Shown here: in pieces, positions 31,929 through 58,055 of the stretch
Layout of the letters: each line of letters opens with the position of its first letter
Numbering within the stretch: position 1 is the first letter of the stretch
Source of the DNA: Blautia coccoides
GTDB taxonomy: Bacteria; Bacillota; Clostridia; Lachnospirales; Lachnospiraceae
Assembly: GCF_034355335.1 (NCBI RefSeq)
Contig: NZ_CP136422.1
Location: 2,235,001 to 2,299,000, forward strand
Reading direction: 5' to 3'
Length of the DNA: 64,000 nucleotides
Program-made: the position numbers and the translations under genes
The notes under the pieces: generated by a model
The model's input: the letters and a program-made list of their open reading frames with translations, nothing else
What the model was told of the DNA's origin: nothing
Databases searched by the model: none

Positions 31929-31979
31929 TGCCGCTGGCCGGACTCGAACCGGCACGGTGTTACCCGCTTGATTTTGAGT
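31929..31979 (-). pseudogene. 3' half of split tRNA-Leu(CAA), attL
   Basis: Read on the minus strand this is the anticodon loop and 3' half of tRNA-Leu: CTCAAAA loop, TCAAG, long variable arm, T-arm GCCGG-TTCGAGT-CCGGC and acceptor CAGCGGC plus discriminator A. CCA is not encoded. Its missing 5' half is at 57964-58004, 26 kb away: acceptor (GCCGCTG/CAGCGGC) and anticodon stem (CTTGA/TCAAG) pair perfectly when the two are joined. The first ten bases shared with the other half, GATTTTGAGT (31970-31979, plus strand), are the attachment core. It cannot be functional by itself. Confidence 0.88.
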
Positions 31980-32143
31980 TTTTCAAGCCATTCAGAAGTA
32001 TTTGGAACGTACTGGTATTGAATGGAACTTACAACCTGCCAAAAACCGCATAAATTCAAGCCCTTTGCCACTTTGCAGCCGATATTTCTGCATGAATAAA
32101 GAATAAACGAAAATCAGCGGTTTGGCAAGCAAAATTTCCCGTT

Positions 32144-32172
32144 GGAGGGATATAGGAGGGATGTGGAGGGAT
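32144..32172 (+). repeat. Three GGAGGGAT repeats, candidate integrase arm sites (left end)
   Basis: GGAGGGAT occurs at 32144, 32155 and 32165, one helical turn apart, in the non-coding 285 bp between attL and the first gene. Matching copies lie near the right end (GGAGGGAT at 57859, AGAGGGAT at 57872). Tn916-type integrases bind short repeats near both ends through an N-terminal arm-binding domain, so these are candidates for that role. The rest of 31980-32264 shows nothing else that I recognise. Confidence 0.5.
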
Positions 32173-32264
32173 TTCCATTATCCTCTCTCAACAAGATACT
32201 ATAAATTATTTATAAAGCAGTCAGCACCTATCACTGACAAATGATAATAAGGAGCTGACAAAAA

Positions 32265-32507
32265 ATGAGAAATAAACAATACTATCAAGAACGCTTTAAG
32301 GACTACCCGGACATAGTGAATTTGGAGCAATTTAGAGAAATGCTAGGTGGTATCGGTGACAGTACGGCAAGAAAGCTCATGCGTGAAAAGAAAGTGAAGC
32401 ATTTTTGTATTCGCCATACTTATATGATACCTAAAGCACACGTTATTGAATATGTACTTAGTGAACACTATGCGGAATATAAATATTCTTTAAAGGTTCA
32501 GATATAA
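32265..32507 (+). CDS. Excisionase-like winged-helix DNA-binding protein
   Basis: An 80-aa protein with a single MerR/Xis-type helix-turn-helix: YPDIVNLEQFREMLGGIGDSTARKLMREKKVKHFCIRHTYMIPKAHVIEYVL. It is clearly related to the Xis at 55841 at the other end of the element (YPDVVSVEQMSEMLG...IPKLNILHYMDI), so the two are paralogues. Its ribosome site is AAGGAG about 11 nt before the ATG. It may be a directionality factor acting at the left end, or a regulator of the next gene. A small hairpin with T-run follows at about 32513-32542. Confidence 0.75.
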   Translation: MRNKQYYQERFKDYPDIVNLEQFREMLGGIGDSTARKLMREKKVKHFCIRHTYMIPKAHVIEYVLSEHYAEYKYSLKVQI

Positions 32508-32573
32508 ATTACAGGACGTTCAGAAATGAGCGTCCTTTTTCATACCTAAAAAGCGAAAGGAGGATTTATTTTT

Positions 32574-35500
32574 ATGAAAAAGATTATGAACCGTCTGCTT
32601 GCAGGCGTACTAAGTCTGGCTGCGGTTTTCACAACCTTACCTGTTTCACAGGTACAGGCTGCGGAGAAACAATACTGGACAGACGCACAGGAAAAGGCAG
32701 GCTATGTAGAAAAGGTTATGAATGATGGCAGTATCGGTTCTACGTTCCATGAGGGCATTATGCAGGTGGAGGGAGAAACCGCCTACTGTATCGACATCAA
32801 CACAGATTTTCAGTCCGGCTACAAGACACGCTCGGACGCAAGTTCCCGTATGAGTGTCGACCAGATTGCTGACGTTGCTCTCTCACTGGAATACGTCAAA
32901 CAGTATGCAGCCAGCCACAAAGAGCTGAATTACAAACAGACTTATTTACTGGAACAGTGCGTTGTCTGGCAGCGTTTAAGCGTGCATTTAGGATGGAGCT
33001 GTGACAATGTACGAGCTGCCTATGACGAGGTATCTAAAGCAGTACAGGACGAGGTATACGCTGGCGCAAAGGCATTTGTAAAAGCCAACAAAGGACGCTA
33101 CGACTGCGGCGGCTATATCTATTCCGGCGACGGACAGGAATTAGGACAGTTCTGGGCGAAGCTGGATGTGGGAAATGCGGCACTTCAAAAGGTGTCCTCC
33201 AATCCCACCATTACCAACGGAAACAACAGCTATTCCCTTGCTGGTGCGACGTATGGTGTCTTTGCTGATAAAGGCTGCAAGGAACAGCTTGCCACCCTTA
33301 CGACAGATAAAGACGGGAACACCGAAGCGGTAGAGGTAAAGGCTGGTAAAATCTATATCAAGGAGTTATCCGTTCCGGCGGCAGGTTTCCAGTTGGACAA
33401 GACGGTATATCCGTTGACTGTCAAAGCTGGTGAAACATCCACATTGAAAGTCAGCGATACACCCAAAGCTACAACCACATTGATTGAGCTTTTTAAGATA
33501 GACATGGAAACATCAAAGGGAGTGGCACAAGGGGCAGCTTCTTTGGAGGGTGCAGAGTTCGTTTGGAATTATTATGACGGGTACTACAACAAAGACAACC
33601 TGCCAGCAAAGCCGACCCGTTCATGGACAACAAAGACCGTGGCTGAAAAAGGCAGCGACGGAACTATCCATTACATCACAAAGCTGACAGACCGCTACAA
33701 AGTATCCGGCGACAGCTTCTACTTACAGGATGGCGTGCCATGCCTGCCACTTGGAACACTGACCGTATCCGAAAGCAAGAGTCCAGCAGGTTACTTGTTG
33801 GAGGGTGCATATATGCAGGCAAACGGCAGCGAGGAACAAATCAAAGGAATGTATCTGGCACAGATTACCGAGGATGGGGAGCTGGCGGTGCTTACAGGCA
33901 GCAACCAGTATTCCGTGTCTGATAAGGTTATCCGTGGCGGCGTGAAAATCCAAAAGCGTGACCTTGAAACACAGGACACGAAGCCACAGGGCGGCGCAAC
34001 TTTAAAAGATACGGAGTTCACCATTACCAGCCTAAATGAGAACGCTGTGCTGGTGGATGGAAAGCTCTATAACAAAGGCGAGGTTGTGAAAACCATCCTT
34101 ACAGGCATTGACGGTATCGCTTCTACGGCTGTGGATACGCTGCCATTTGGAACATACCGTATTGATGAAAAAAAGAGTCCGGCAGGCTACTTGGCGACGG
34201 GTGCGGTTTCCCGTGAATTTACCATTAAGGAAAATGGCAAAATTGTGGACTTGACTGGTGCGGAACAATCCATCTACAACCAGATCAAGCGTGGTGACAT
34301 TGAGGGCGTGAAAATCGGTGACGGAACACACAAGCGCCTTGCTGACGTTCCGTTCCGCATTACCAGCAAGACCACAGGTGAGAGCCACGTTGTCGTGACT
34401 GATAAAAACGGACAGTTCTCTACCGCTTCTGACTGGGTATCCCATAAGCAGAATACCAACAGGGGCAAGACCAGCGAGGACGGTATCTGGTTCGGTACGT
34501 CTGAACCGGACGACTCCAAAGGTGCGCTGCTGTACGATACCTACAAGATTGAGGAATTGCGCTGCGACAGTAATAAGGGGTTTAAGCTCATTCCGGCTTT
34601 TGAGATTGTGGTTTCCAGAGATAAGGTAGTCATTGACTTGGGAACGCTCACTGACGACTACGAAAAAGAAATCTCTATCCATACCACCGCTGCGGATAAA
34701 GCCACGGGTGAGAAATCAATCATTGCCGGAAAAGAGGTCACGATTGTGGACACGGTCACGCTGGACGGTCTGAAAAAGGGCACAAAGTACCAGCTCAAAG
34801 GCTGGCAGATGATAAAGGATGAAAATGCCGAGCTTATTATTGATGACAAGCGTGTTGAGAGTGAATACACATTCACCGCTGACAGTGAGGAAATGAAAGT
34901 CAAGGTAGAATATACGTTCAATGCTTCTGCCCTTGGGGGTAAAGACTTGGTTACTTTTGAAGAACTATACGACTTATCCGACAAGAATGAGCCTGTCAAA
35001 GTGGCTGAACACAAAGACATTGAGGACGACGGGCAGACGGTATCCATCAAAGACCGTGTAATTAAAATCCATACCACAGCTGCGGACAAAGCCACGGGCG
35101 AGAAAGTAATCGTTGCTGGCAAAGAGGTCACAATCGTGGATACGGTCACTATAGATGGTCTGGAAGTAGGTACAAGATACCAGCTCAAAGGCTGGCAGAT
35201 GGTAAAAGATGAAAACACCGAGCTTCTCATGGATGGCAGGCGTGTGGAGAGTGATCACACATTTACTGCCAATAAGGAGGAAATGAAAGTGGAGGTCACC
35301 TTTACATTCAACGCTTCTGCCCTTGGCGGCAAGAACTTGGTGACGTTTGAGGAACTCTACGACGTAACCAATCCCGACGAGCCTGTAAAGGTCACGGAAC
35401 ATAAAGACATAGAGGACGAGGGGCAGACGGTTCTTATCACCGAGCGCATAATCAAAATCCATACCACTGCCGCCAGCAAAGACGGTGAAAAAGCCATAGA

Positions 35501-36032
35501 AGCTGGCAAAGAGGTCACAATCGTGGATACGGTCACGCTGGACGGTCTGGAAGTGGGTACAAAGTACCAGCTCAAAGGCTGGCAGATGGTAAAGGATGAA
35601 AATGCCGAGCTTCTCATTGACGGGAAACGTGTGGAGAATGACTACACATTCACCGCTGCCGACACCAAAATGGAGGTGGAGATTGTCTTTACATTTGACG
35701 CTTCAAAGTTGGGCGGCAAGCAGCTTGTGACCTTTGAGGAACTCTACGACATCACCAACCCTGACGAGCCTGTAAAAGTCACAGAACATAAGGACATCAC
35801 GGACAAGGAGCAGACAATCACAATCAAGGAAGTGCCGGAAACGCCTGCGCCCGAAGAACCAAAGAAACCGGAAACACCAGACACGCCGAGCCATAAGGTG
35901 ACGGACTCCCCCAAAACGGGTGATAACACCAATGTGGCTGTCTTTGCTGTCCTGCTTGGACTCTCTGCGGCTGGTCTTGCTTTTGCAGCCTATAAGAAAC
36001 GCCGTTCCATGAAGCATGACAGTGATAAATAG
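32574..36032 (+). CDS. Thioester-domain, VaFE-repeat surface protein with sortase-type anchor
   Basis: An 1152-aa cell-surface adhesin-like protein. A signal peptide (residues 1-29, ending VQA) precedes a thioester domain with Cys72 (AYCIDI) and Gln128 (LLEQCVVWQR), which can form a covalent bond to host or cell surfaces. Cna-B/SpaA-like domains follow, with KSPAGYL motifs, then three near-identical ~130-residue VaFE-type repeats starting near bases 34677, 35067 and 35457, each with IHTTA, YQLKGWQM and LVTFEELYD; such repeats carry stabilising Thr-Gln ester bonds. The C-terminus is Pro/Glu-rich, then SPKTGDN, a hydrophobic helix and KKRRS, a class of LPXTG-like sorting signal. In a conjugative element it may bring donor and recipient cells together (inference). 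Confidence 0.9.
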   Translation: MKKIMNRLLAGVLSLAAVFTTLPVSQVQAAEKQYWTDAQEKAGYVEKVMNDGSIGSTFHEGIMQVEGETAYCIDINTDFQSGYKTRSDASSRMSVDQIADVALSLEYVKQYAASHKELNYKQTYLLEQCVVWQRLSVHLGWSCDNVRAAYDEVSKAVQDEVYAGAKAFVKANKGRYDCGGYIYSGDGQELGQFWAKLDVGNAALQKVSSNPTITNGNNSYSLAGATYGVFADKGCKEQLATLTTDKDGNTEAVEVKAGKIYIKELSVPAAGFQLDKTVYPLTVKAGETSTLKVSDTPKATTTLIELFKIDMETSKGVAQGAASLEGAEFVWNYYDGYYNKDNLPAKPTRSWTTKTVAEKGSDGTIHYITKLTDRYKVSGDSFYLQDGVPCLPLGTLTVSESKSPAGYLLEGAYMQANGSEEQIKGMYLAQITEDGELAVLTGSNQYSVSDKVIRGGVKIQKRDLETQDTKPQGGATLKDTEFTITSLNENAVLVDGKLYNKGEVVKTILTGIDGIASTAVDTLPFGTYRIDEKKSPAGYLATGAVSREFTIKENGKIVDLTGAEQSIYNQIKRGDIEGVKIGDGTHKRLADVPFRITSKTTGESHVVVTDKNGQFSTASDWVSHKQNTNRGKTSEDGIWFGTSEPDDSKGALLYDTYKIEELRCDSNKGFKLIPAFEIVVSRDKVVIDLGTLTDDYEKEISIHTTAADKATGEKSIIAGKEVTIVDTVTLDGLKKGTKYQLKGWQMIKDENAELIIDDKRVESEYTFTADSEEMKVKVEYTFNASALGGKDLVTFEELYDLSDKNEPVKVAEHKDIEDDGQTVSIKDRVIKIHTTAADKATGEKVIVAGKEVTIVDTVTIDGLEVGTRYQLKGWQMVKDENTELLMDGRRVESDHTFTANKEEMKVEVTFTFNASALGGKNLVTFEELYDVTNPDEPVKVTEHKDIEDEGQTVLITERIIKIHTTAASKDGEKAIEAGKEVTIVDTVTLDGLEVGTKYQLKGWQMVKDENAELLIDGKRVENDYTFTAADTKMEVEIVFTFDASKLGGKQLVTFEELYDITNPDEPVKVTEHKDITDKEQTITIKEVPETPAPEEPKKPETPDTPSHKVTDSPKTGDNTNVAVFAVLLGLSAAGLAFAAYKKRRSMKHDSDK

Positions 36033-36561: not shown

Positions 36562-36576
36562 GGAGGTCAAGAGATT

Positions 36577-37016: not shown

Positions 37017-37796
37017 ATTGAGCGTTTAGCAATACGGGAAATCCCCAAAGATACGGCAGTCACTTTCATACGTGAATACCACTATTCCAAAGTGATACCA
37101 CGGCTCTGCGTCTACTTCTTGGGGATTTACCATGAAAACCGATTGACAGGGGTTGTGGAGCTTGGATGGGGAACGCAACCCTTACAGACCATCCGCAAGA
37201 TTTTCCCACAGCATAAGCTGGTGACATCCGATTATCTGGAAATCGGGAAGATGTGCTTTCTACCAGAAATGAACCATAACCAGTATTTTGGCAGCCTTGC
37301 CCTCTCCGCTTTGATTAAGTGGCTACGGGTGAACACAGGCTGCCTTTTTCTATACACACTTGCGGATGGCATTGAGGGAAAATGCGGTTATGTATATCAG
37401 GCTTCTAACTTCTACTACCTTGGCAGCTTCAAGACTAGCGTATACCGTGACCGGGAAACGGGCGAAAAGATACATCCCCGAAGTGCCAGAATACTGCTGG
37501 AAGAAAATGCCCGAATGGATGGCGTAAAGAAGCGGCACTGGCTGACCCATGCGTTTTGTGAGTACAAAGGGATAGAGAAGATCAATGGACTTATGTTCCG
37601 TTATATCTACCCACTGACGAAAGAAGCAAGGCAGATTTTAAACGCCTATCCCTGTTATGCCAGACATCACTATCCCAAAGATGGCAGCCTGCTGTTTCAA
37701 AGACGGGTTTCTAACAGAGTCTATGAAACCATCCGGCAGCCGCATTTTGATAAGAACACCTGCCGCTATAACACACAGGACTATAACCACTGTTGA
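37017..37796 (+). CDS. Mom-like DNA-modification/acyltransferase-fold protein, start codon unclear
   Basis: Product resembles the Mom-family (adenine methylcarbamoylation) proteins found in phage Mu and in some ICEs, with a GNAT-like core: IREYHYSK, GVVELGWGTQP, YLEIGKMCFLPEMN, LFLYTLADGI and GYVYQASNFYYLG. If so it would chemically mask adenines and shield DNA from restriction. The conserved N-terminus (ERLAIREIPKDTAVTFIREYHYSKVIP) is coded in frame from about 37020, but no ATG, GTG or TTG occurs there in frame; AAGGAG at 37001-37006 is 10 nt before an ATT at 37017. The first standard start is GTG 37092, which would remove 25 conserved residues. Either ATT is used or the gene has lost its start. 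Family assignment is moderate. Confidence 0.6.
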   Translation: MERLAIREIPKDTAVTFIREYHYSKVIPRLCVYFLGIYHENRLTGVVELGWGTQPLQTIRKIFPQHKLVTSDYLEIGKMCFLPEMNHNQYFGSLALSALIKWLRVNTGCLFLYTLADGIEGKCGYVYQASNFYYLGSFKTSVYRDRETGEKIHPRSARILLEENARMDGVKKRHWLTHAFCEYKGIEKINGLMFRYIYPLTKEARQILNAYPCYARHHYPKDGSLLFQRRVSNRVYETIRQPHFDKNTCRYNTQDYNHC

Positions 37797-37807
37797 AAGG
37801 AGGACTT

Positions 37808-39199
37808 ATGCAACTTTACAAACACTATAAAGGCAACCGTATCCGTGCCAGTGACAAGTCGCTGGTGGTGCGGTCATTGGGCGGTCGGCTGGCGTGCCTG
37901 CTCTTTGCGGTCGTGCTGCTTTTGAATATCAATACGCTGCTGCATACGGACCGGAACACGGTTTCGTTATTTCAAAACGGCAGCATTAAGCTCTCGGTTA
38001 CGCCCTACATGATAGTATCTCTTGTAGCGGCGGTGCTGGTCTGCGGTTTGTCTGCGTTCCTGTATGCCCGTTACCAGCCGGACAGAATAAAGCAGCTCTG
38101 TCACCGTCAAAAGCTGTCACGGATGATATTGGAAAATGGCTGGTATGAGTCCGAGCAGTCACAGGATGGCGGCTTTTTCAAAGACTTGCCTGCCAGCAGG
38201 TCAAAGGAGAAAATCACTCACTTTCCCAAAGTGTACTACCGCCTAGATAATGGACTTATACACATACTGGCAGAAATCACCTTGGGAAAATATCAAGACC
38301 AGCTCCTGCACTTGGAAAAGAAGCTGGAAACAGGCTTGTACTGTGAGCTGGTTTCCAAAGAGCTGAAAGACAGCTTTGTGGAATATGTCTTACTCTATGA
38401 CACCATTGCCAACCGTATCACCATAGATGAGGTACAGGCGGCAGGCGGCAGCCTGCGGCTCATGAAAAATGTGTATTGGGAATATGACAAGCTCCCTCAT
38501 ATGCTGATTGCTGGCGGCACTGGCGGCGGTAAGACCTACTTTATCCTTACCATCATAGAAGCACTCCTGCGTACCAACGCCAAACTGTATGTGCTTGACC
38601 CGAAGAACGCCGACCTTGCCGACCTGTCCGCCGTCATGTCCGAAGTCTACTACCGAAAGGAGGAAATCACAGACTGTATCGACCACTTTTATGATGGCAT
38701 GATGGAACGGAGCGAAGCCATGAAGCGCATGGACGGTTACAAGACAGGGGAAAACTATGCTTATTTAGGTCTGCCGCCCCACTTCCTCATTTTTGACGAA
38801 TACGTGGCGTTTATGGAAATGCTGACGACAAAGGAAAACGCTTTGGTCTTGAATAAACTGAAACAGATTGTCATGCTCGGACGGCAGGCAGGATATTTCC
38901 TCATTCTCGCCTGTCAGCGACCGGACGCAAAATACCTTGGCGACGGTATCCGTGACCAGTTTAATTTCCGTGTGGCACTTGGCAGAATGTCAGAGCTTGG
39001 GTATTCTATGATGTTCGGTGAGGTGGACAAGGACTTTTTCTTAAAGCAGATCAAAGGGCGTGGCTACGTGGATACGGGAACGAGTGTCATATCAGAGTTT
39101 TACACTCCCCTTGTACCAAAAGGGCATGACTTTTTAACGGTGATTGGGGAGCTGGCAGGAAAGGAGGTGAAAAAAGAAGCTACGGGAACATTCCCATAG
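37808..39199 (+). CDS. tcpA: FtsK/SpoIIIE-type coupling ATPase TcpA (Tn916 Orf21-like)
   Basis: The 463-aa coupling protein that brings relaxase-bound ICE DNA to the secretion channel. Two N-terminal membrane helices (about residues 22-45 and 60-85) precede an FtsK-like ATPase domain with Walker A IAGGTGGGKTYF and Walker B FLIFDEYVAFM, and the QRPDAKYLGDGIRDQFNFRVALG segment typical of TcpA. The ATG at 37808 has AAAGGAGG 5 nt before it, preferred to 37793. Located between the DUF961 genes and relaxase as in Tn916. Confidence 0.94.
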   Translation: MQLYKHYKGNRIRASDKSLVVRSLGGRLACLLFAVVLLLNINTLLHTDRNTVSLFQNGSIKLSVTPYMIVSLVAAVLVCGLSAFLYARYQPDRIKQLCHRQKLSRMILENGWYESEQSQDGGFFKDLPASRSKEKITHFPKVYYRLDNGLIHILAEITLGKYQDQLLHLEKKLETGLYCELVSKELKDSFVEYVLLYDTIANRITIDEVQAAGGSLRLMKNVYWEYDKLPHMLIAGGTGGGKTYFILTIIEALLRTNAKLYVLDPKNADLADLSAVMSEVYYRKEEITDCIDHFYDGMMERSEAMKRMDGYKTGENYAYLGLPPHFLIFDEYVAFMEMLTTKENALVLNKLKQIVMLGRQAGYFLILACQRPDAKYLGDGIRDQFNFRVALGRMSELGYSMMFGEVDKDFFLKQIKGRGYVDTGTSVISEFYTPLVPKGHDFLTVIGELAGKEVKKEATGTFP

Positions 39200-40111: not shown

Positions 40112-40140
40112 GTGTCAACTGGAACGCTTCTAGTTGACAC
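40112..40140 (+). repeat. Hairpin before relaxase, possible terminator or single-strand origin element
   Basis: GTGTCAACT (40112-40120) pairs perfectly with AGTTGACAC (40132-40140), followed by a run of five Ts. A weaker AAGTCCTT/AAGGACTT hairpin with a T-run lies just upstream (40073-40097). They may end upstream transcripts or fold in the transferred single strand; sequence alone does not decide. Confidence 0.5.
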
Positions 40141-40150
40141 TTTTTCCAGA

Positions 40151-41368
40151 ATGGAGGGATTTTTACTGAATGATACAGACTGGAACACAGAGTTAAAAGA
40201 AAAACGGCTGGCATACGGCGTTTCACAAAACAAGCTGGCGGTGACGGCTGGCATTACAAGGCAGTACCTTGGCAAGATAGAGTCCGGCAGTGCTGCTCCC
40301 AGTGAGGAAATCAAAGAAAACCTGCTGCAAGCTCTGGAACGGTACAATCCAGAAACACCGCTTACCATGCTATTTGATTATGTGCGGATACGGTTTCCTA
40401 CCACAGACGTGCGGTTTGTGGTCGAAACCATCCTTAAATTAAAGCTGGATTTTATGATACATGAGGACTTCGGCTTCTACTCCTATCCAGAGCATTACTA
40501 CATGGGGGATATATTTGTTTTGGTATCCCCCGAACAGGAAAAGGGGGTGCTGCTGGAACTGAAAGGAAAAGGCTGCCGCCAGTTTGAAAACTTCCTGCTG
40601 GCACAGCATAGGAGCTGGTACGACTTCTTCACGGATGCTCTCTGCGAGGGCGGCGTGTTCAAGCGGATAGACCTTGCCATCAACGATATGGTGGGGATAC
40701 TGGACATTCCAGAACTGACCGCTAAATGCCGGAATGAGGAATGTATTTCCGTATTCCGAAGTTTCAAGTCCTACCGCTCCGGCGAGCTGGTGCAGAGCCA
40801 TGAAAAAAACAAGTCCGGCATGGGGCACACGCTCTATATTGGTTCACTGAAATCAGAGGTCTACTTCTGTGTGTATGAAAAAGATTACGAGCAGTTCGTA
40901 AAATACGACATCCCCGTTGAGGAAACGCCTGTCAAGAACCGCTTTGAAATCCGTTTAAAGAACGAGCGAGCCTACTATGCGGTGCGTGACCTGCTGACCT
41001 ACTATGACGCTGAACGCACTGCATTTTCCATCATCAACCGCTATGTACGGTTTGCCGATAAGGACGACACGAAGCGACGGAGCGAATGGCAGACAAATCA
41101 GCGTTGGGCGTGGTTTCTCGGTGAGGGGCGTGGGCGGCTGAAACTGACGACCGAACCAGAACCGTACAATTTCCAGCGTACCTTAAACTGGCTGGCAAGG
41201 CAGGTCGCCCCTACCTTGCAGGTAGCTGAAAAACTGGATAAACAGAACAACACGACGGTGATTAAGGACATGGTGAAACATGCGAAGCTCTCCGACCGAT
41301 TGGAAAAGGTCTTGCGGCAGCTCTCCGTCACCGTGGAGGAAATGACTGTCAAGGACAAGGAGGAATAA
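40151..41368 (+). CDS. Relaxase / replication initiator, Rep_trans-MobT family (Tn916 Orf20-like)
   Basis: The 405-aa protein that nicks oriT and starts rolling-circle replication and transfer. An N-terminal XRE-type helix-turn-helix (LKEKRLAYGVSQNKLAVTAGITRQYLGKIESG) precedes the Rep_trans domain, with FKRIDLAINDMVG, TLYIGS and RFEIRLKNERAYYA as family landmarks. The nearby oriT (40014) is its expected substrate. The ATG at 40151 is used; GGAGGG lies inside the first codons, so a start slightly downstream at a non-ATG codon cannot be excluded. Confidence 0.92.
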   Translation: MEGFLLNDTDWNTELKEKRLAYGVSQNKLAVTAGITRQYLGKIESGSAAPSEEIKENLLQALERYNPETPLTMLFDYVRIRFPTTDVRFVVETILKLKLDFMIHEDFGFYSYPEHYYMGDIFVLVSPEQEKGVLLELKGKGCRQFENFLLAQHRSWYDFFTDALCEGGVFKRIDLAINDMVGILDIPELTAKCRNEECISVFRSFKSYRSGELVQSHEKNKSGMGHTLYIGSLKSEVYFCVYEKDYEQFVKYDIPVEETPVKNRFEIRLKNERAYYAVRDLLTYYDAERTAFSIINRYVRFADKDDTKRRSEWQTNQRWAWFLGEGRGRLKLTTEPEPYNFQRTLNWLARQVAPTLQVAEKLDKQNNTTVIKDMVKHAKLSDRLEKVLRQLSVTVEEMTVKDKEE

Positions 41369-43156: not shown

Positions 43157-43546
43157 TTGAAGAAAATAAGAAGCTATACCAGCATTTGGAGCGTGGAAAA
43201 GGTCATTTACGCTATCAACGACTTTCAGCTCCCGTTCCCCATCACATTTACACAGATGGCGTGGTTCGTGGTATCCCTGTTTGCGGTGATTGTATTTGCA
43301 GAGCTGCCGCCCCTGAACATGATTGACGGGGCGTTCCTCAAATACTTTGGTATCCCCGTGGCGGTGACGTGGTTCATGAGCCAGAAAACCTTTGACGGAA
43401 AGAAGCCCTACGGTTTCCTAAAATCCAGTATCAGCTACCTGCTTCGCCCGAAAGTGACCTATGCCGGGAAAACAGTGAAGCTGAAAACGGAATCATTAAA
43501 TGTAGCCATTACGGCAGTTAGGAGTGATGTGTATGTTCCCCATTAA
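43157..43546 (+). CDS. tcpE: TcpE-family conjugation membrane protein (Tn916 Orf17-like)
   Basis: A 129-aa protein with two membrane helices (MAWFVVSLFAVIVFAEL and DGAFLKYFGIPVAVTWFM) followed by a soluble tail with LRPKVTYAGK. Length, topology and position before the VirB4 ATPase identify TcpE. The start looks like TTG 43157, with AAAGGAATG upstream. It overlaps the VirB4 gene by about 14 bp. Confidence 0.88.
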   Translation: MKKIRSYTSIWSVEKVIYAINDFQLPFPITFTQMAWFVVSLFAVIVFAELPPLNMIDGAFLKYFGIPVAVTWFMSQKTFDGKKPYGFLKSSISYLLRPKVTYAGKTVKLKTESLNVAITAVRSDVYVPH

Positions 43547-45983: not shown

Positions 45984-45988
45984 AGCCT

Positions 45989-48205
45989 ATGCGTAAACAT
46001 AAAATCCTGCGCTATGCAGGTATCACCCTCTTAGTCATTGTGGGTATCCTCGTTTTCCTGTCCATCACGGGTACGGTGGCTCATGCCGCCGGATTGGTGG
46101 ACGACACGGTAGACGCTGCTAACCAGTATTCTAAGTATCTGCTGGAAAACTACCAGCTTGACTTCTACGTGGACAGCTCATGGGATTGGCTGCCTTGGAA
46201 CTGGCTGGACGGTATCGGCAAGAGTATCCAGTACGGCTTGTACGCCATCACCAACTTTGTCTGGACAGTGAGTATGTATATCTCCAACGCCACAGGGTAC
46301 GTGGTGCAGGAAGCCTATAAGCTGGACTTTATCTCCGATACCGCAAACGCAATCGGAACTAACATCCAGACCCTTGCCGGGGTAAATGCAGGCGGCTTCG
46401 CTGCACAGGGGTTCTATGTGGGTTTCCTGCTTATCCTTGTGCTGCTGGTGGGTATCTATGTGGCGTACACAGGTCTTATCAAGAGGGAAACCACAAAGGC
46501 TGTCCATGCAGTCGTCAACTTCCTTGTGGTATTCGTCCTGTCAGCGTCTTTTATCGCCTACGCTCCCAACTACATTACAAAAATCAATGACTTTTCCTCG
46601 GACATCAGCAGTGCGGCACTGTCACTGGGTACGAAAATCACCCTCCCCAACTCCGACAGTCAAGGGAAAGACAGTGTGGACTTGATACGTGACAGCCTGT
46701 TTTCCATACAGGTGCAGCAGCCTTGGCTGTTATTGCAGTACGGCAACTCCGATATGGAGGACTTGGGTGCAGACCGTGTAGAGAGTCTGCTCTCTGCCAG
46801 CCCGGACACCGACACCAGAGAGGATACGGTGATTGCGGAAATTGAGGACAAGGACAACCCGAACATGAGCGTCACAAAGACTATGAGCCGCTTGGGAACG
46901 GTGGTATTTCTGTTCCTGTTCAATATCGGTATTTCCGTCTTTGTATTCCTGCTTACGGGCATGATGATTTTCTCGCAAGTGTTGTTCATTATCTATGCTA
47001 TGTTTCTGCCCGTGAGCTTCATTTTATCTATGATACCCTCTTACGAGGGCATGGCAAAGAAAGCAATCACAAAATTATTTAACACCATCATGATGAGGGC
47101 AGGCATTACCCTCATTATCACCGCCGCATTTAGCGTGAGTACCATGTTCTACGCTATCTCGGCAGGCTATCCATTCTTTATGATTGCCTTTTTGCAGATT
47201 GTCACCTTTGCAGGTATTTACTTTAAGCTGGGCGATTTGATGGGAATGTTCAGTTTGCAGTCCGGCGACGCACAGCAGGTCGGCAGGCGTATCCTCCGGC
47301 GACCTTATATGCTATTAAACAGAGGGGCAAGGCGCATGGAACATCGTGTCGGCAGGACGTTAGCCGCTGGCATGGCTGGCGGTGCGGTAGGTGCTGCGGC
47401 GGCTTCTGGCAGCCGTAAACCCGATACAAGGAAATCTGCGGACAGACAGAACCATGCCACAGGCAGCCGCCCCAACCACGATACAGGACAATCCGGCGAT
47501 ACCGCCACCTTTGGCAAGCGTGCTGGCTCTAAGGTGGGTGCGGTTCTGGATGCAAAGCAGAGAGTCAAGGATAAGGCACAGTCCGTCAAAGAACAGGTCA
47601 AAGATATGCCGATACAGGCAGGCTACGCCGTCCATTCCGTGAAAGAACGGGCAAAGGAAAACGTGTCCGACTTCAAGCGTGGCATGGTGGAGGAAAAAAC
47701 CACCCGGCAGCAAGGACGGGCAGCAAAACAGGACAGCCACAGGCAGACCATAGCGGAAAAACGTATGGCAATGGAAAGAGCAAAACCTACAGGATCAGTG
47801 GCGAAAGGTACTGCCCCTGTCCATGAGCGACCAACCACAATGCCTGTATCCGGCGCAACGACAACACAGGCGACTGCTGCGAAAGGTGCAGCTCCTAAGA
47901 CAGAGCCGACCAGCAAGGAACGTCCGGCGGCAGTATCCAGAGAAAGCTATGAGAAGCCGCCGCACACAAAAGGCAGAGAGCCAGCGGTAAAACCACAGGA
48001 ACAGCGCACGCAAGTGGTACGGGAGTCTGGGGCACGTTCCCAGACAGTCAAAGAACCAACAAAGCCACAGGCGGTAAAAGAGCCTGTTCCTGCCGGAACT
48101 AAGACTATTCGACAAACCAATACACAGAAAACAAGCCGGAACATCCAGCGTAATACCGTAAAGAAATCCTCCACCCACACAACGAAGAAAGGACGGAAAA
48201 AATGA
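45989..48205 (+). CDS. VirB6-like multi-spanning conjugation protein (Tn916 Orf15-like)
   Basis: A 738-aa membrane protein. The first helix ends at a cleavage-like VAHAAG, and five or more helices follow up to residue ~420 (GFYVGFLLILVLLVGIYVAYTG, NFLVVFVLSASFIAYA, VVFLFLFNIGISVFVFLLTG and others), with a large loop between. The last ~280 residues are basic, Pro/Thr/Lys-rich and probably disordered. This matches the VirB6-like channel protein of Tn916-class systems. The start is ATG 45989 after CGAGG. The next gene overlaps by 4 bp. Confidence 0.9.
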   Translation: MRKHKILRYAGITLLVIVGILVFLSITGTVAHAAGLVDDTVDAANQYSKYLLENYQLDFYVDSSWDWLPWNWLDGIGKSIQYGLYAITNFVWTVSMYISNATGYVVQEAYKLDFISDTANAIGTNIQTLAGVNAGGFAAQGFYVGFLLILVLLVGIYVAYTGLIKRETTKAVHAVVNFLVVFVLSASFIAYAPNYITKINDFSSDISSAALSLGTKITLPNSDSQGKDSVDLIRDSLFSIQVQQPWLLLQYGNSDMEDLGADRVESLLSASPDTDTREDTVIAEIEDKDNPNMSVTKTMSRLGTVVFLFLFNIGISVFVFLLTGMMIFSQVLFIIYAMFLPVSFILSMIPSYEGMAKKAITKLFNTIMMRAGITLIITAAFSVSTMFYAISAGYPFFMIAFLQIVTFAGIYFKLGDLMGMFSLQSGDAQQVGRRILRRPYMLLNRGARRMEHRVGRTLAAGMAGGAVGAAAASGSRKPDTRKSADRQNHATGSRPNHDTGQSGDTATFGKRAGSKVGAVLDAKQRVKDKAQSVKEQVKDMPIQAGYAVHSVKERAKENVSDFKRGMVEEKTTRQQGRAAKQDSHRQTIAEKRMAMERAKPTGSVAKGTAPVHERPTTMPVSGATTTQATAAKGAAPKTEPTSKERPAAVSRESYEKPPHTKGREPAVKPQEQRTQVVRESGARSQTVKEPTKPQAVKEPVPAGTKTIRQTNTQKTSRNIQRNTVKKSSTHTTKKGRKK

Positions 48206-49206
48206 AGCTGCGGCATTTAGCACTGCTTGGTGGGATTTTCACGGTGATTATCAGTCTGCTATTGTTTCTTTTTATTGTCACAGCAGACGACGAGGAAAGC
48301 GGCGGCAGTTCCGGCTTTGACTATTCGGGCATGAACCTGTCAGCAGATGTCTTGAAACACCAGCCGACTGTGGAAAAATATGCGAAGCAATACGGCATTT
48401 CAGACTATGTGAATTACCTGCTTGCCATCATGCAGGTGGAGTCCGGCGGCACAGCGGTGGACGTTATGCAGTCCAGCGAGTCTTTAGGTCTGCCGCCCAA
48501 CTCTTTAGGTACAGAGCAGTCCATTGAACAGGGATGTAAATATTTTGCTTCTCTGCTTGCTTCAGCAAAAGCAAAAGGCTGTGATATAAACACCGTCGTC
48601 CAGAGCTACAACTATGGCGGCGGTTTTATTGATTACGTGGCAAGCCACGGGAAAAAGTACACCTTTGAACTGGCGGTCAGCTTCGCAAGGGAGAAGTCCG
48701 GCGGTGTCAGAGTGACCTACAAGAATAAAATCTCCATCAAAGAAAATGGCGGCTGGCGGTACAAGTACGGAAATATGTTTTACGTCCGGCTGGTAGCACA
48801 ATATCTGGCAGTACCTAATTTCAGCAATGCCACGGTACAAGCAATCTTCAATGAAGCTCTCAAATATCAAGGCTGGACGTATGTATTCGGGGGCGATAAC
48901 CCGAACACCAGCTTTGATTGCAGCGGTCTGGTGCAGTGGTGCTATGGAAAGGCTGGTATCAGCCTGCCGAGGGTAGCGCAAGACCAGTACGACGCAACAC
49001 AGCATATCCCACTGTCACAAGCGAAAGCTGGTGATTTGGTATTCTTCCACAGTACCTACAATGCCGGAACTTATGTCACCCATGTGGGGATATATGCAGG
49101 AAATAACCGTATGTATCACGCCGGAAACCCGATTGGCTATGCAGACCTCAACACTTCGTACTGGCAGCAACACATCATTGGTGCCGGACGTGTGAAATCC
49201 AACTAA
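48202..49206 (+). CDS. cwlT: Bifunctional lysozyme / NlpC-P60 peptidoglycan hydrolase, CwlT-like (Tn916 Orf14)
   Basis: A 334-aa cell-wall hydrolase that opens peptidoglycan for the transfer channel. After one membrane helix (residues 6-27) comes a lysozyme-like domain (LLAIMQVESGG, SYNYGGGFIDYV; catalytic Glu in the VESGG motif) and then a C-terminal NlpC/P60 endopeptidase with Cys in FDCSGLVQW and His in THVGIYAG. Both catalytic sites look intact. It is essential in the related ICEBs1 system. Confidence 0.94.
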   Translation: MKLRHLALLGGIFTVIISLLLFLFIVTADDEESGGSSGFDYSGMNLSADVLKHQPTVEKYAKQYGISDYVNYLLAIMQVESGGTAVDVMQSSESLGLPPNSLGTEQSIEQGCKYFASLLASAKAKGCDINTVVQSYNYGGGFIDYVASHGKKYTFELAVSFAREKSGGVRVTYKNKISIKENGGWRYKYGNMFYVRLVAQYLAVPNFSNATVQAIFNEALKYQGWTYVFGGDNPNTSFDCSGLVQWCYGKAGISLPRVAQDQYDATQHIPLSQAKAGDLVFFHSTYNAGTYVTHVGIYAGNNRMYHAGNPIGYADLNTSYWQQHIIGAGRVKSN

Positions 49207-49227
49207 GACAGAAAGGAAATGGTAACT

Positions 49228-50136
49228 ATGAGATTGAAGAAAAAAGAGAAAGAAGCAAAACCCACCAAGGCTAAAAAAGTGCGTGTTCTAAAAGCAGGCA
49301 CGCATAAGAAATCCGTGATTGCCCTGTGGCTGGTGCTGATTGCCAGCGTCAGCTTCGGGGTGTATAAGAATTTCACCGCCATTGATATACACACCGTCCA
49401 TGAGAAAGAGGTCATAGAGCAGCGTATCGTGGATACCAACAAGATTGAAAACTTTGTCAAGGACTTTGCAAAAGCCTACTATTCATGGGGGAATAACAAA
49501 GAAGCCATTGAAGCAAGGACAAAAGCCATCAGTCAGTATCTAACAAAGAGCTTACAGGACTTGAATGTGGACACGGTGAGAAGTGACATTCCCACCAGTT
49601 CTGCGGTGAACGAGGTGAAAATCTGGAACTTGGAGCAGGCTGGCACAGACGAGTACACCGTCCTCTATTCGGTCGATCAGACCATTACAGAGGGCGACCA
49701 GACCAACCGCAATATTGCTGCTTACACGGTAGTAGTTCATGAGGATAGTGACGGGAACATAGTAATCACAAAGAACCCGACCATCAGCCGGATACCATCA
49801 AAATCCGGCTATGAGCCAAAGACAGCGGAAAGTGACGGAACGGTGGACTCTGCCACCACAGAGGAAGTGACCGAGTTCTTGGAAACATTCTTCAAGCTGT
49901 ATCCGGTGGCTACGGACAAGGAGCTTTCCTACTATGTGGCTGGAAATGCGCTGAAACCTGTAAACACCGATTATCTGTACTCCGAGCTAATCAATCCGCT
50001 GTTTACAATGGATGGGGATAAGGTCAAGGTGTCGGTATCGGTGAAGTATCTCGACCAGAGAACAAAGGCAGCACAGATTTCACAGTTTGATTTGGTGCTG
50101 GCTGAAATAGATGGGAACTGGAAAATAGTAAAATAA
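49228..50136 (+). CDS. tcpC: TcpC-like transfer channel protein (Tn916 Orf13)
   Basis: A 302-aa bitopic membrane protein with one helix (VIALWLVLIASVSFGVY, residues ~30-50) and two NTF2/VirB8-like outside domains, as in TcpC. Landmarks are NFVKDFAKAYYSWGNNKEAIEART and FLETFFKLYPVATDKELSYYV. The ATG at 49228 has GAAAGGAA 9 nt upstream. It is the last gene of the transfer operon and is followed by a terminator at 50146-50178. Confidence 0.92.
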   Translation: MRLKKKEKEAKPTKAKKVRVLKAGTHKKSVIALWLVLIASVSFGVYKNFTAIDIHTVHEKEVIEQRIVDTNKIENFVKDFAKAYYSWGNNKEAIEARTKAISQYLTKSLQDLNVDTVRSDIPTSSAVNEVKIWNLEQAGTDEYTVLYSVDQTITEGDQTNRNIAAYTVVVHEDSDGNIVITKNPTISRIPSKSGYEPKTAESDGTVDSATTEEVTEFLETFFKLYPVATDKELSYYVAGNALKPVNTDYLYSELINPLFTMDGDKVKVSVSVKYLDQRTKAAQISQFDLVLAEIDGNWKIVK

Positions 50137-53904: not shown

Positions 53905-54261
53905 CTAATCTTCCCCCACTTCCTTTGATTTGATGATACCAGCAGCGACACTTTCCATGATAACCATATCTTTGTCGTCAAAAGTATCAAGCTGTTGTTC
54001 CAACTGTCTGCGGCGAGTGCTTTTCACTTTATCGCCGGACGGGAGGAAAATTTCATCAACGGACACATTGAGTAAAGTTACAAGGTCGTAAAACACCTGT
54101 AAACTTGGGTGCTGCCCTTTATTTTCAATGTTTGTCAGATAGCGTGGGTCAATTTCAATTTTTGCTCCCACCTGTTCACGGGTCAGACCTTGTTTCATTC
54201 TTGCTGCTTTAATGGCAAGTCCAAAGGCTCTGAAATCGTACTTATCTTCTGTTTTACGCAT
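53905..54261 (-). CDS. XRE-family regulator (Tn916 Orf9-like)
   Basis: A 118-aa repressor-like protein with a helix-turn-helix ([41 protein letters not shown]) and the tail [34 protein letters not shown] typical of Tn916 Orf9 homologues. In Tn916 it is divergent from orf7/orf8 and represses them until induction. The order is the same here, divergent from the sigma-like gene with a 567-bp regulatory gap. Confidence 0.88.
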
Positions 54262-54530
54262 ATTTAATCACCTCACTACATTTTACTGTTCCTAAAGAAT
54301 TTGTAACAGGTACAGTAAAACGTATTGTAAGGTTTATCAGTTCCTATGAAAAGGTGAACAATAAATATATATGCTGCTTGGCGGTAATAAAAAAAACCGT
54401 TGTCAGCAGTAATGCTTTTATATGCCCTTTTCGATAAAACGACGGTTCATACAGCCGCCGTTTTATTTTTTTCCTAACGGTGGACAAACTACTGGATGGT
54501 TTTGTTTTAGCGGCTTTAGGAGGTAGCCGC

Positions 54531-54593: not shown

Positions 54594-54655
54594 TTTCTGC
54601 GGTATTTTATACTCCTGTATGTGGTTTTTCACATCATATAGCAGGAACAATTTGG

Positions 54656-55245: not shown

Positions 55246-55249
55246 AAAC

Positions 55250-55489
55250 ATGATGAAGTCTACAAAAAAGTGTCCGTCATTCTCTGCCATCAGCTCTGCT
55301 GCTGACGGTGACGAGGTGGCAATCGAAAAAATTTTGAACCATTATGACGCTTACATATCAAAAGCCAGCCTACGCCCGTTCTATGACGAACACGGGAATA
55401 TGTATATCGTGGTTGATATGGAATTGAAAGGCAGGATAAGGGCAGCATTAATAAAAGCAATTTTAGGGTTTGAAATCAAAGTGAAATAA
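55250..55489 (+). CDS. Orf8-like small helix-turn-helix protein
   Basis: A 79-aa protein (CPSFSAISSAADGDEVAIEKILNHYDAYISKASLRPFYDEHGNMYIVVDMELKGRIRAALIKAIL) with the helix-turn-helix domain (HTH_16-like) of Tn916 Orf8. It works with the Orf7-like protein. AGGAGGAATG overlaps the upstream stop. Confidence 0.87.
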   Translation: MMKSTKKCPSFSAISSAADGDEVAIEKILNHYDAYISKASLRPFYDEHGNMYIVVDMELKGRIRAALIKAILGFEIKVK

Positions 55490-55557
55490 ATGGTATTCGG
55501 GAGTATCCTACCACCTCATTTCAGCTCCCCGAATTATAGCTCCTTGAAAATTGAATA

Positions 55558-55813
55558 AGGTAATCAAATACTTTAGATATGTACCGAGCCTGCGGACAAA
55601 TACGCCATGACCTTACACTTGTAAGTGAGCGATACCTATTTGTGTTCCACAAGCGACCTCTGGAACGGTCGTGAGCCATGACGTTACATATCCGACAATG
55701 ATACTCCTATATAGCCTTAGCTTGAGCGTTTGAAGCGTCGCACGCAAAGGGTATAGCTGCACTGTGTATGCAGGGGTGGAACTCCCGTGAGCCGCTAGGC
55801 TGTTTGATTACCT
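55558..55813 (+). ncRNA. Candidate ~256-nt structured RNA upstream of xis
   Basis: The non-coding gap between orf8 and xis is bracketed by AGGTAATCAAA (55558-55568) and TTTGATTACCT (55803-55813), an 11-bp perfect closing helix. Nested within are GATATGTA/TACATATC (55576-55583, 55685-55692), ACAAATA/TATTTGT (55596-55602, 55637-55643), a CTTAC-ACTT-GTAAG hairpin (55612-55625), a CTGCA/TGCAG hairpin near 55760-55776 and an AGCCTTAGC/GCTAGGCT helix closing the 3' domain. At least six ordered, nested helices in 256 nt are unlikely by chance. I do not recognise the RNA class. The xis ribosome site begins 15 nt after it, so it could be a leader controlling xis/int or a separate RNA. Confidence 0.6.
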
Positions 55814-55840
55814 CTTTGTATCTTGTTGGGAGGTATTGTA

Positions 55841-56053
55841 ATGGAACAGAAAATTACAACTAACGATACCTACCGTATTATGTTCAATAACTACCCAGAT
55901 GTAGTAAGTGTGGAACAAATGAGTGAAATGCTTGGAATAAGCACGAAAACAGCTTATAACTTGCTTCGTAAAAATAAAATCATGTGTTTTAAGATTGGAA
56001 GAACCTATAAAATTCCAAAGCTCAACATTCTGCACTACATGGATATTATCTAA
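55841..56053 (+). CDS. xis: Excisionase
   Basis: A 70-aa winged-helix excisionase (FNNYPDVVSVEQMSEMLGISTKTAYNLLRKNKIMCFKIGRTYKIPKLNILHYMDII), which bends DNA near the ends of the element and directs integrase to excise. The start is ATG 55841, 7 nt after GGGAGGT; upstream in-frame codons belong to the leader. It is 101 bp before int, the Tn916 arrangement. Confidence 0.92.
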   Translation: MEQKITTNDTYRIMFNNYPDVVSVEQMSEMLGISTKTAYNLLRKNKIMCFKIGRTYKIPKLNILHYMDII

Positions 56054-56154
56054 AAATCTATTGCGTCTGTTATTGCCAGCAGTCATTGAACCTGTTATAC
56101 TTGATCCAGTCAGTGATAGGTGAAATGACTGCTATTATTTTAGGAGGAACTAAT

Positions 56155-57672
56155 ATGGTAGCAGGACACTTACGAAAACAAAATGGATATTTCCAGATGA
56201 TTTTAAGTTATAAAGACAGCACTGGCAAAAGACGTACAAAGTCAATTAGTACAGGACTTCCCATAAAGGGAAATCAGAAGCGTGCAGAAGCTATGCTCTT
56301 AGAAACCAGAAAGAATTTCAACCCAGAGGACGCTATGACAGATAAGAACACTCTGTTTAGCAAATTTCTTGAAAAGTGGCTGAAAGCCAATCTGAAAAGC
56401 ATAGACACAGAAACATACGCTTTATACTCATACAATGTGAAAATGTTTCTTATTCCGTATTTTGAAAAGTCAGAGGTTCGTATCTGTGATTTGAAAACTT
56501 CGGATATTGAGTGCTATTACAATTACGAGAAAAGCGACCACCACGCTTCAAAAACAGTTATCTTGCAGCTACATGAAATAATCAGAATTGCTCTTGATTA
56601 TGCGGTAGAGCTTGAATGGATTGACACCAACCCGGCAAAGGATATTAACCCTGCCACAGATGAAGTGGCTATATTGTTCACGGACTTCATGTTAGAATGG
56701 CTAGAAATGATGAAATCCTGTGTAGAAGAAACAACCTTTGCTTCTTACACTTCAATGGTGAAAAAACGCATTGTACCCTACTTCTTAGAAAAAAGATATA
56801 CACTTAATGAGATGGAGGAAAACCCAAAATACATTCAAGAATATTATCAATACGAATTGAACTTGGGTCTGTCAGCAAATACCGTTATTCACCGACACGC
56901 TAATATCCGAAAGGCTTTGCAATATGCTTTTCAAATTGGGTTGATAAAATCAAATCCGGCAGACCGTATCGAGCGTCCGAAAAAAGAGAAATATGTAGCT
57001 TCTTACTACAACACAGAAGAACTTGACACCTTATTTAAGGTTTCAAAAGACGATCCTATGGAGCTGGCTATTATATTAGCGGCTTTCTATGGTTTGCGTC
57101 GAAGTGAAGTGGTAGGATTGAAATGGAATGCTATCGACTTTGAACGTAAAACAATTACAATACAGTATACTGTAACAGAAGCGAATTTGAATGACGGACG
57201 AGGAAATGTCATAATTGAAAAAGAACGTACAAAGTCCAAAACCAGCCGACGCACTCTGCCGCTGGTAAAACCGTTTGAGGATTTGCTAATCAGAATGTAT
57301 CTGGAACAGAAGAAAAACAGAAAACTGTGCGGTGATTGCTATTGTACTGATTATCTGGATTTTATCTACGTTAATGAAATTGGGGAAAGAGTAAAACCCG
57401 GTTATTTAACACAACACTTTCCATTGCTGCTGAAAAAGCATAATTTGAGGAAAATAAGGTTTCACGATTTAAGACATAGCTGTGCAAGTCTGTTATATGC
57501 AAATGGCGTTAGCTTGAAGCAGATACAGGAATGGCTAGGTCACAGTGATATTTCTACAACCTCAAATATTTATACTCACTTAGATTATAGCAGCAAGGTA
57601 TCATCCGCTAATGCGATACTGTCCGTATTCCCGTCTAAAACGCCATCAGAGCAACAAAAGGCGGTCGGATAA
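56155..57672 (+). CDS. int: Tyrosine integrase with duplicated core-binding domain
   Basis: A 505-aa tyrosine recombinase that integrates and excises the ICE. The N-terminal arm-binding domain (GHLRKQNGYFQMILSYKDSTGKRRTKSISTGL) is followed by two SAM-like core-binding domains in tandem: residues ~85-200 (LFSKFLEKWLKANL...VKMFLIPYF...NPAKDINPAT) and ~205-325 (LFTDFMLEWLEMMK...VKKRIVPYF...NPADRIERPK). The catalytic domain is complete: R315, H437, R440, H463, Y473. Tn916 Int is about 405 aa with one such domain, so the extra ~100 residues come from this duplication. The start is ATG 56155 after TAGGAGGAAC. Its target appears to be the anticodon loop of tRNA-Leu(CAA). Confidence 0.93.
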   Translation: MVAGHLRKQNGYFQMILSYKDSTGKRRTKSISTGLPIKGNQKRAEAMLLETRKNFNPEDAMTDKNTLFSKFLEKWLKANLKSIDTETYALYSYNVKMFLIPYFEKSEVRICDLKTSDIECYYNYEKSDHHASKTVILQLHEIIRIALDYAVELEWIDTNPAKDINPATDEVAILFTDFMLEWLEMMKSCVEETTFASYTSMVKKRIVPYFLEKRYTLNEMEENPKYIQEYYQYELNLGLSANTVIHRHANIRKALQYAFQIGLIKSNPADRIERPKKEKYVASYYNTEELDTLFKVSKDDPMELAIILAAFYGLRRSEVVGLKWNAIDFERKTITIQYTVTEANLNDGRGNVIIEKERTKSKTSRRTLPLVKPFEDLLIRMYLEQKKNRKLCGDCYCTDYLDFIYVNEIGERVKPGYLTQHFPLLLKKHNLRKIRFHDLRHSCASLLYANGVSLKQIQEWLGHSDISTTSNIYTHLDYSSKVSSANAILSVFPSKTPSEQQKAVG

Positions 57673-57697
57673 GGTTTTATTGTGTAGACAACAAAAA

Positions 57698-57723
57698 AGC
57701 TCTCTAGCGTGAGCTAAAGAGCT
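57698..57723. terminator. Bidirectional terminator between int and tRNA-Leu
   Basis: AGCTCT (57698-57703) pairs with AGAGCT (57718-57723), with an inner AGC/GCT extension. On the minus strand it is followed by TTTTTT, so it ends the tRNA transcript; on the plus strand it is followed by GAATTTT and may also end int. Confidence 0.75.
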
Positions 57724-57731
57724 GAATTTTC

Positions 57732-57814
57732 TGGTGCCGCTGATGGGACTCGAACCCATATGGTTTCCCGTACGATTTTGAGTCGTATGCGTCTGCCAGT
57801 TCCGCCACAGCGGC
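57732..57814 (-). tRNA. tRNA-Leu(CAA), intact copy carried by the ICE
   Basis: Minus-strand tRNA with acceptor GCCGCTG/CAGCGGC, anticodon arm TACGA-CTCAAAA-TCGTA (anticodon CAA), a long class II variable arm, T-arm ATGGG-TTCGAGT-CCCAT, discriminator A and encoded CCA. It lies inside the element, 150 bp from attR, and keeps the att core GATTTTGAGT (57774-57783) but with different flanking stem bases from the split gene. It has its own promoter (57844-57872) and terminator. It should supply the tRNA lost through insertion. Confidence 0.93.
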
Positions 57815-57843
57815 TTATATTTCAAATCCTGTGGTTCTTGTAT

Positions 57844-57872
57844 ATCTTATCCGATTTTGGAGGGATATGCAA
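57844..57872 (-). promoter_or_regulatory. Promoter of the ICE-carried tRNA-Leu
   Basis: Minus-strand TTGCAT (complement of 57867-57872), 17-bp spacer, TAAGAT (complement of 57844-57849), 30 bp before the tRNA 5' end. The spacer and flank contain GGAGGGAT (57859) and AGAGGGAT (57872), the same motif repeated at the left end of the element, so integrase binding here could affect tRNA transcription. Confidence 0.8.
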
Positions 57873-57879
57873 GAGGGAT
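57859..57879 (+). repeat. GGAGGGAT-type repeats, candidate integrase arm sites (right end)
   Basis: GGAGGGAT at 57859 and AGAGGGAT at 57872 match the three GGAGGGAT copies at 32144-32172 in the same orientation. They are about 90-100 bp from attR. Role as arm sites is inferred from occurrence at both ends. Confidence 0.45.
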
Positions 57880-57963
57880 ATTGAAAACTAAGCTAATTAT
57901 TAAGTTGTCTAAACCCTTGATTTATCAAGGAATATGCAAAGCACCTATAAAGTACACGCATTG

Positions 57964-58004
57964 GATTTTGAGTCAAGTGCGTCTGCCAATTCCGCCACAG
58001 CGGC
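57964..58004 (-). pseudogene. 5' half of split tRNA-Leu(CAA), attR
   Basis: Minus-strand GCCGCTGTGGCGGAATTGG, then D-arm, CTTGA stem and CTCAAAA anticodon loop. After GATTTTGAGT (57964-57973, plus strand) the sequence becomes ICE. The matching 3' half is at 31929-31979. The promoter for the original gene is still present upstream (58027-58055), so it probably makes a truncated RNA that continues into the ICE and through the intact tRNA copy. Confidence 0.9.
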
Positions 58005-58026
58005 TCGTTCTCACGAACCGAAATTA

Positions 58027-58055
58027 ATATTACCATATAATTTTACACCATGCAA
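58027..58055 (-). promoter_or_regulatory. Original promoter of the split tRNA-Leu
   Basis: Minus-strand TTGCAT (complement of 58050-58055), 17-bp spacer, TAATAT (complement of 58027-58032), 23 bp before the tRNA 5' end. Same -35 hexamer and spacing as the promoter of the ICE-carried copy. Confidence 0.75.

Follow-up and report, generated by a model that had tools for sequence, protein, structure and literature searches.

A 64,000-nucleotide stretch of the Blautia coccoides genome (contig NZ_CP136422.1, positions 2,235,001 to 2,299,000; hereafter, the window) contains a tRNA-Leu(CAA) gene that is interrupted in its anticodon loop, with a 26-kb element lying between the two halves, at about 31980-57963. 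The 3' half (31929-31979, minus strand), identical to the 3' half of an intact gene in a relative of the same genus (G003), ends in a 10-bp core at 31970-31979, i.e., the left attachment site. The 5' half (57964-58004, minus strand), recognized by rejoining and by comparison with G003, includes the right core (57964-57973, not assigned to a strand), an exact core copy that agrees with the ends of a related element in Claveliimonas bilis. This core, GATTTTGAGT, occurs in exact form three times in the window, at 31970, 57774 and 57964. The copy at 57774 falls within a complete tRNA-Leu(CAA), with an encoded CCA, which the element itself carries inside its right end (57732-57814, minus strand) and which was the single tRNA that ARAGORN called in the window; the carried and the split tRNA thus share the same anticodon. 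Between the attachment sites, together with a tyrosine integrase (56086-57672, plus strand; Phage_integrase, 2.4e-26), lie a MobT family relaxase (40112-41368, plus strand; 711.9 bits against a cut-off of 600) and the conjugal transfer ATPase TcpF (43524-45983, plus strand; 1619.2 bits, cut-off 1100), a combination that identifies a MobT integrative and conjugative element.

When the sequence up to 31979 was fused computationally to that from 57974 onward, ARAGORN recovered an 82-nt tRNA-Leu(CAA) (31929-31979 plus 57974-58004), in which the acceptor and anticodon stems pair (CTTGA/TCAAG) and CCA is not encoded. Joining 80 different loop-heptamer pairs of the window, each on both strands (160 joins), yielded three accepted pairs, all among the three tRNA sites. 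Uncut versions of the gene are present in two congeneric genomes, each a single contig: the rejoined gene matches that of G003 (L125, 8928-9009) in all 82 of 82 bases and differs by one base from that of G008 (L126, 8590-8671). A tRNA in a third genome, G010 (L127), likewise matches. The resemblance extends beyond the gene: a 101-bp segment that takes in the 5' half and its upstream region matches G003 at 93% and G008 at 91%, and the 3' side of the target in G003 matches at 88% over 92 bp. The two junctions of the element are identical to each other over the 10-bp core alone. Thus, the preliminary description of this DNA, made from its letters, was borne out in proposing that the gene is split in its anticodon loop with neither end rebuilt: the halves rejoin, they are contiguous in the empty sites of G003 and G008, and both still flank the element.

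Upstream of the 5' half, the letters of a host promoter (TTGCAT-N17-TAATAT, 58027-58055, minus strand) stand in a region conserved in G003 and G008. The gene adjoining the target in all three genomes is one that we take to be uroporphyrinogen-decarboxylase-like. With respect to this neighbouring gene, the segment bearing the tRNA has the opposite orientation in the window (57964-59173) from that in G003 (L125) and G008 (L126), and the other flank of the G003 target could be located neither in the window nor in the two adjoining stretches.

The position of the element's ends is further indicated by short direct repeats resembling GGAGGGATAT, three of which lie near the left core (32144-32174, plus strand) and two between the carried tRNA and the right core (57859-57881, plus strand). 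With at most one mismatch, such repeats have nine matches in the window, against 3.86 expected, and we regard them as putative arm-type sites of the integrase. Since repeats of the left type lie outside the carried tRNA, the end of the element lies beyond that gene. In line with this placement, the C. bilis element, whose integrase is 86% identical to that of the window and which sits in a different host tRNA, has a left end that resembles the window's and starts right after the core, three such repeats near it, and right-end letters that are alike up to the core.

The carried gene is followed by a terminator (57698-57723, minus strand), found by terminator search, as the preliminary description had claimed; the promoter it proposed is present as letters (TTGCAT-N17-TAAGAT, 57844-57872, minus strand), with its first hexamer overlapping the arm repeats, but a consensus promoter scan did not list this candidate. 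In the genome, a single contig of 6.10 Mb, 59 tRNA matches were found (150 of 192 candidates scored). Reading the regions of the eleven long tRNAs among them with ARAGORN gave two Leu(TAA) genes, one Leu(TAG), two Leu(CAG) and one Leu(AAG), with CAA at the carried locus only. A pattern comprising the D-arm and loop matched the carried gene and the split half, along with two places that the tRNA list lacks; its matches in C. bilis were the carried gene and the split half only, and a loop-plus-T-arm pattern in a further genome (G033) recovered the carried Ser(CGA) only. Among the Leu genes read in the 6.1-Mb genome, no intact CAA gene other than the carried tRNA was thus found. In another relative, G021, the D-arm-plus-loop pattern marked one further CAA-like place, on another contig.

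Taken together, these results make it likely, in our judgement, that an integrative and conjugative element has split tRNA-Leu(CAA) and supplies its function through a whole tRNA of the same anticodon. The tyrosine integrase would recombine the 10-bp core within the anticodon loop, where we infer cleavage at the loop borders as well as the exact points of strand exchange, and integration would leave the host gene as two halves. The complete gene in the right attachment region, between the integrase gene and the arm-type sites, would be transcribed, its product charged, and this would be what makes integration tolerable; excision would restore the host gene. The sequences themselves show a split target and an empty site, a carried tRNA with no second intact CAA gene found besides it, the outer repeats and a layout that recurs across the integrase clade, whose targets are Leu and Ser tRNA genes.

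This recurrence was examined by scanning 84,980 species genomes, which yielded 410 stretches encoding a relative of the integrase; the best 80 of these were kept, so that the counts for the family describe its closest members. A whole tRNA followed the integrase gene on the opposite strand at 71 of 80 loci, the anticodons being Leu CAA, TAA or CAG and Ser CGA or TGA. Where at least 210 bp lay beyond the tRNA (68 loci), its exact anticodon-loop heptamer recurred at +130 to +200 in 54, whereas six other offset ranges gave 1/71, 6/71, 2/67, 9/67, 1/67 and 1/67. Alignment, from which two of the 71 tRNA-bearing loci with short downstream sequence were omitted (L015 and L080), placed a split 5' half beyond the carried tRNA at 62 of 69 loci, one of them (L042) at +3 and thus off the usual offset; shuffled sequences gave none at 249 loop-like places. 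Tandem repeats with 8-9 exact bases stood upstream of the carried tRNA in 57 of the 64 regions compared (the window, a second copy in its own genome and 62 of those 71 loci) versus 1.3% in shuffles, with 55 of them spaced 12-13 bp and 51 located at -71 to -54. The carried anticodon also tracked the integrase tree, requiring seven changes where shuffling gave a mean of 26.0 and none of 200 shuffles was as low (64 family loci, the window and the second copy, leaving out L078, L080, L091 and four loci lacking a 250-aa frame). Moreover, the family splits Leu(TAA) genes and, in one group, Ser(TGA) genes, each with a matching tRNA carried. Beside the integrase gene of an Enterococcus faecalis plasmid (protein 40% identical), a tRNA-Lys(CTT) (L133, 2553-2627) stands before the integrase gene instead of after it.

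The second copy in the window's own genome (L177 and L184) has the same layout: an integrase gene at 688337-689815 (protein 54% identical), a whole tRNA-Leu(TAA) at 688190-688275 and, at 688013 after a tRNA-Asp, the 5' half of a split Leu(TAA). No 3' half was found within 80 kb from 687400. Among other relatives, we searched 19 for the partner half over 5.7-60 kb upstream of the integrase gene, and both halves of the split target were recovered in five. In four of these (L017, L053, L094 and L054), a lone 3' half lies 8.1, 38.8, 18.5 and 13.5 kb, respectively, upstream of the start of the integrase gene; joining it to the right half again yields a tRNA, and the left site gives no complete tRNA call. 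In the fifth (L018/G021), the partner half is found some 72 kb away, next to a second integrase, and again both target halves rejoin. The carried and target Ser(CGA) tRNAs of L094 clearly differ in sequence, and the carried and host tRNAs of L054 are identical.

L018 also shows how these elements may stack. Past its carried tRNA come three successive cores, each reached through the same arm repeats. The 3' half next to the other integrase rejoins with the first of the split halves; in L018/G021, then, one element has inserted into a tRNA that an earlier element had brought, the anticodon stem being the same. The preliminary description had suggested that the carried copy, having different stem bases, could be a poor target for the same integrase, and as a rule this does not hold, given this insertion and the identity of the two tRNAs in L054. 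At least two split halves were seen at 12 of 69 loci, and in 10 of 69 they lie 180-223 bp apart, the spacing predicted by nesting, which rejoining verified in one case. A 9-base exact repeat spaced 12-13 bp lies between the halves in six of these ten; L060, L068 and L081 have only a pair 11 bp apart, and L067 has none. L045 and L090 were rejected as nested, as their 78-bp spacing does not fit. In the window, what is left of a second member of the integrase family lies beside the 3' half, 75% identical over residues 140-467 (24158-25135 and 31660-31875). Read by eye, this broken gene (23495-25249, 25292-31356 and 31660-31875) has its start fused to an IS256-type transposase-like piece and its frame cut near the HDLRH motif by an apparent type I restriction-modification cassette, and its last part adjoins the terminator of the split tRNA. 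The target in the window may itself once have been borne by an element, but the likeness of its body, promoter and terminator to the G003 gene argues for a host gene.

Several observations weigh against replacement of the split gene by the carried one. No tRNA was found at 9 of the 80 loci, three of which have less than 600 bp after the integrase gene; alignment showed no split half at 7 of 69; and the second target half was not found in 14 of the 19 relatives tried, nine of them with 34-60 kb searched. Evidence for promoters of the carried tRNAs is weak, with a sigma-70-like score of at least 9 in 28% of the 64 upstream regions, against 8% in shuffles. ARAGORN also accepted the wrong crosses 31971 x 57775 and 57775 x 57965; since it accepts mispaired joins, the choice of core rests on stem pairing and on the empty sites. 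Finally, the target may be dispensable: tRNA-Leu(UAA) may read UUG by wobble and two Leu(TAA) genes are present, so that it is doubtful whether the CAA target is essential.

This last point underlies the strongest alternative, in which the carried tRNA is a passenger or an aid to translating the element's own genes and loss of the host gene is tolerated as tRNA-Leu(UAA) reads UUG. Besides the two Leu(TAA) genes, codon usage speaks for it, TTG making up 90 of 484 Leu codons in 11 open reading frames of the element (window 32574-57672) and 52 of 536 in 11 chromosomal ones. However, a mere passenger would hardly be placed between the integrase gene and the arm repeats family-wide, with an anticodon that follows the integrase clade and a loop heptamer that recurs at the split site, nor would it explain the family's Leu(TAA) and Ser(TGA) targets with their matching tRNAs; we consider this account unlikely. 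Far less credible is ordinary rebuilding, an alternative that the preliminary description itself had raised, with the core at 57774-57783, the intact tRNA composed of a 3' half from the element and a 5' half from the host, and the fragment at 57964 a relic. In its favour are the same 10-mer at 57774 and ARAGORN's acceptance of the cross 31971 x 57775. In that product, however, the anticodon stem is mispaired (CTTGA with TCGTA); in addition, the empty sites of G003 and G008 match 57964-58064 and not 57784-57814, repeats of the left-end type lie to the right of 57814, and the right end in C. bilis stays alike as far as 57964; on these grounds this core was excluded. Both outcomes that the preliminary description had named as refuting it, non-contiguous halves in an empty site and a core at 57774-57783, are thus contradicted. 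That the locus is a dead composite or an assembly artefact, with no working element, is suggested by the broken integrase left of the 3' half and by the flank rearranged against G003, and is nonetheless very improbable given that the genome is one contig, the ends match those of an independent species, and the reading frames of the relaxase, TcpF and integrase are unbroken.

The proposed replacement of the host tRNA by the element's own resembles tRNA-dependent lysogeny, which PMC10865867 established in actinobacteriophages such as Fionnbharth, LeBron and Gaia. Gaia, according to section 10 of that paper, targets tRNA-Leu-CAA through an 8-bp core and has its phage tRNA downstream of the integrase gene. 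The similarity to our element lies in the tyrosine integrase, the short core, the target tRNA that is not rebuilt, and a carried and a split tRNA that are both Leu(CAA). The phages, however, are temperate and their need for the tRNA was shown experimentally (PMC10865867), whereas here the element is conjugative and the layout is read from sequence. Further differences from the actinobacteriophages are the host, of Bacillota kin, the clade-wide position of the tRNA between the integrase gene and the arm repeats, the Leu and Ser targets, and nesting in carried tRNAs. Nor is the element a temperate phage: it has conjugation genes, as seen when its larger proteins were compared with Pfam and NCBIfam rather than PHROGs. 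Thus, the element works like tRNA-dependent lysogeny and is not a member of the phage system. Section 11 of PMC10865867 calls for further work on prevalence beyond actinobacteriophages, and cites the Lj965 prophage of Lactobacillus johnsonii, which reportedly does not rebuild its target tRNA and encodes a cognate tRNA; Lj965 is a prophage, likened to our element by description only. Viral contigs held five relatives of the integrase (best identity 44%), none with a tRNA. In a phage collection, all 1775 matching records were below 60% identity to the integrase; the best matches were unverified faecal scaffolds labelled 'Bacteriophage sp.' (51% and 48%), and a tRNA-Ser(CGA) adjoins the integrase gene in the two examined. 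Members of this integrase clade may therefore be carried by phages as well.

Among islands that target tRNAs, reconstruction of the gene is the rule, as stated in the Islander paper (PMC4383910) and a review (PMC8371274). Such islands share with our element a tyrosine integrase crossover in the tRNA anticodon loop and a location between a tRNA and a tRNA fragment. Our element departs from them in that its attachment site lacks a fragment completing the target, which stays in two halves, and in that it brings a further whole tRNA. By its MobT relaxase, TcpF ATPase, TcpC-like protein and lysozyme/NlpC-P60 protein, it resembles Tn916-like MobT conjugative elements, with which we presume it groups. 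Tn916 itself has an integrase of low site specificity and no direct repeats, according to PMC4701971, whereas ours is site-specific, with a 10-bp direct repeat and a tRNA target, and carries a tRNA, which sets it apart from Tn916. Among the titles and abstracts listed by searches of open-access literature, none concerned a conjugative element with a whole replacement tRNA, and one may exist elsewhere.

Our findings extend this layout from phages to conjugative and mobilizable elements in Bacillota, as a recurring module of integrase gene, whole tRNA, arm repeats and core, with five targets verified by rejoining besides that of the window. If this reading is true, element ends may be misplaced by tools built on the assumption of target reconstruction, some tRNA genes now ascribed to the chromosome are part of mobile elements, and the host may rely on an element for one of its tRNAs. 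The defined pairs of carried and target tRNAs are also available for the study of integrase site choice. More tentatively, a clade of such elements may have made tRNA replacement a fixed part of the attachment site. Since the carried tRNA would itself be a landing site, later elements could insert in it, giving rise to nested arrays and to serial replacement of host Leu and Ser tRNA genes by those of elements. Arm sites located in the promoter of the carried tRNA, or close to it, may couple expression of that tRNA to the state of integration.

The remaining genes of the element, all on the plus strand, begin near its left end with a small protein (32265-32504) that has a weak, below-cut-off match to HTH_17 and is possibly an excisionase; C. 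bilis and G021 show a similar start close to their left ends. It is followed by cargo in the form of a surface protein bearing SpaA and T-Q ester bond domains (32574-36032), an FtsK/SpoIIIE-type ATPase, likely the coupling protein (37793-39199), a CD3337/EF1877 family mobilome membrane protein (45980-48205), a protein with lysozyme-like and NlpC/P60 domains (48202-49206) and a TcpC-like protein (49219-50136), which has no NCBIfam match itself and was named by likeness to a C. bilis counterpart that matches Pfam TcpC. Rfam placed two RNAs inside the element, SQ2397, a cis-regulator of an HTH factor (54249-54480, 152.9 bits), and pemK RNA (55695-55790, 40.0 bits). Cargo varies among relatives: the window's VirB4-type ATPase was present in 3 of 33 relatives' genomes, always on a different contig from the integrase; L053 and G021 encode a coupling protein and a MobA/VirD2-type relaxase, and L094 and L054 such a relaxase. 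The C. bilis element carries TcpC and lysozyme proteins, and looks like a deletion derivative (L136, 12230-13072), in which the excisionase-like start runs into the lysozyme/NlpC-P60 protein.

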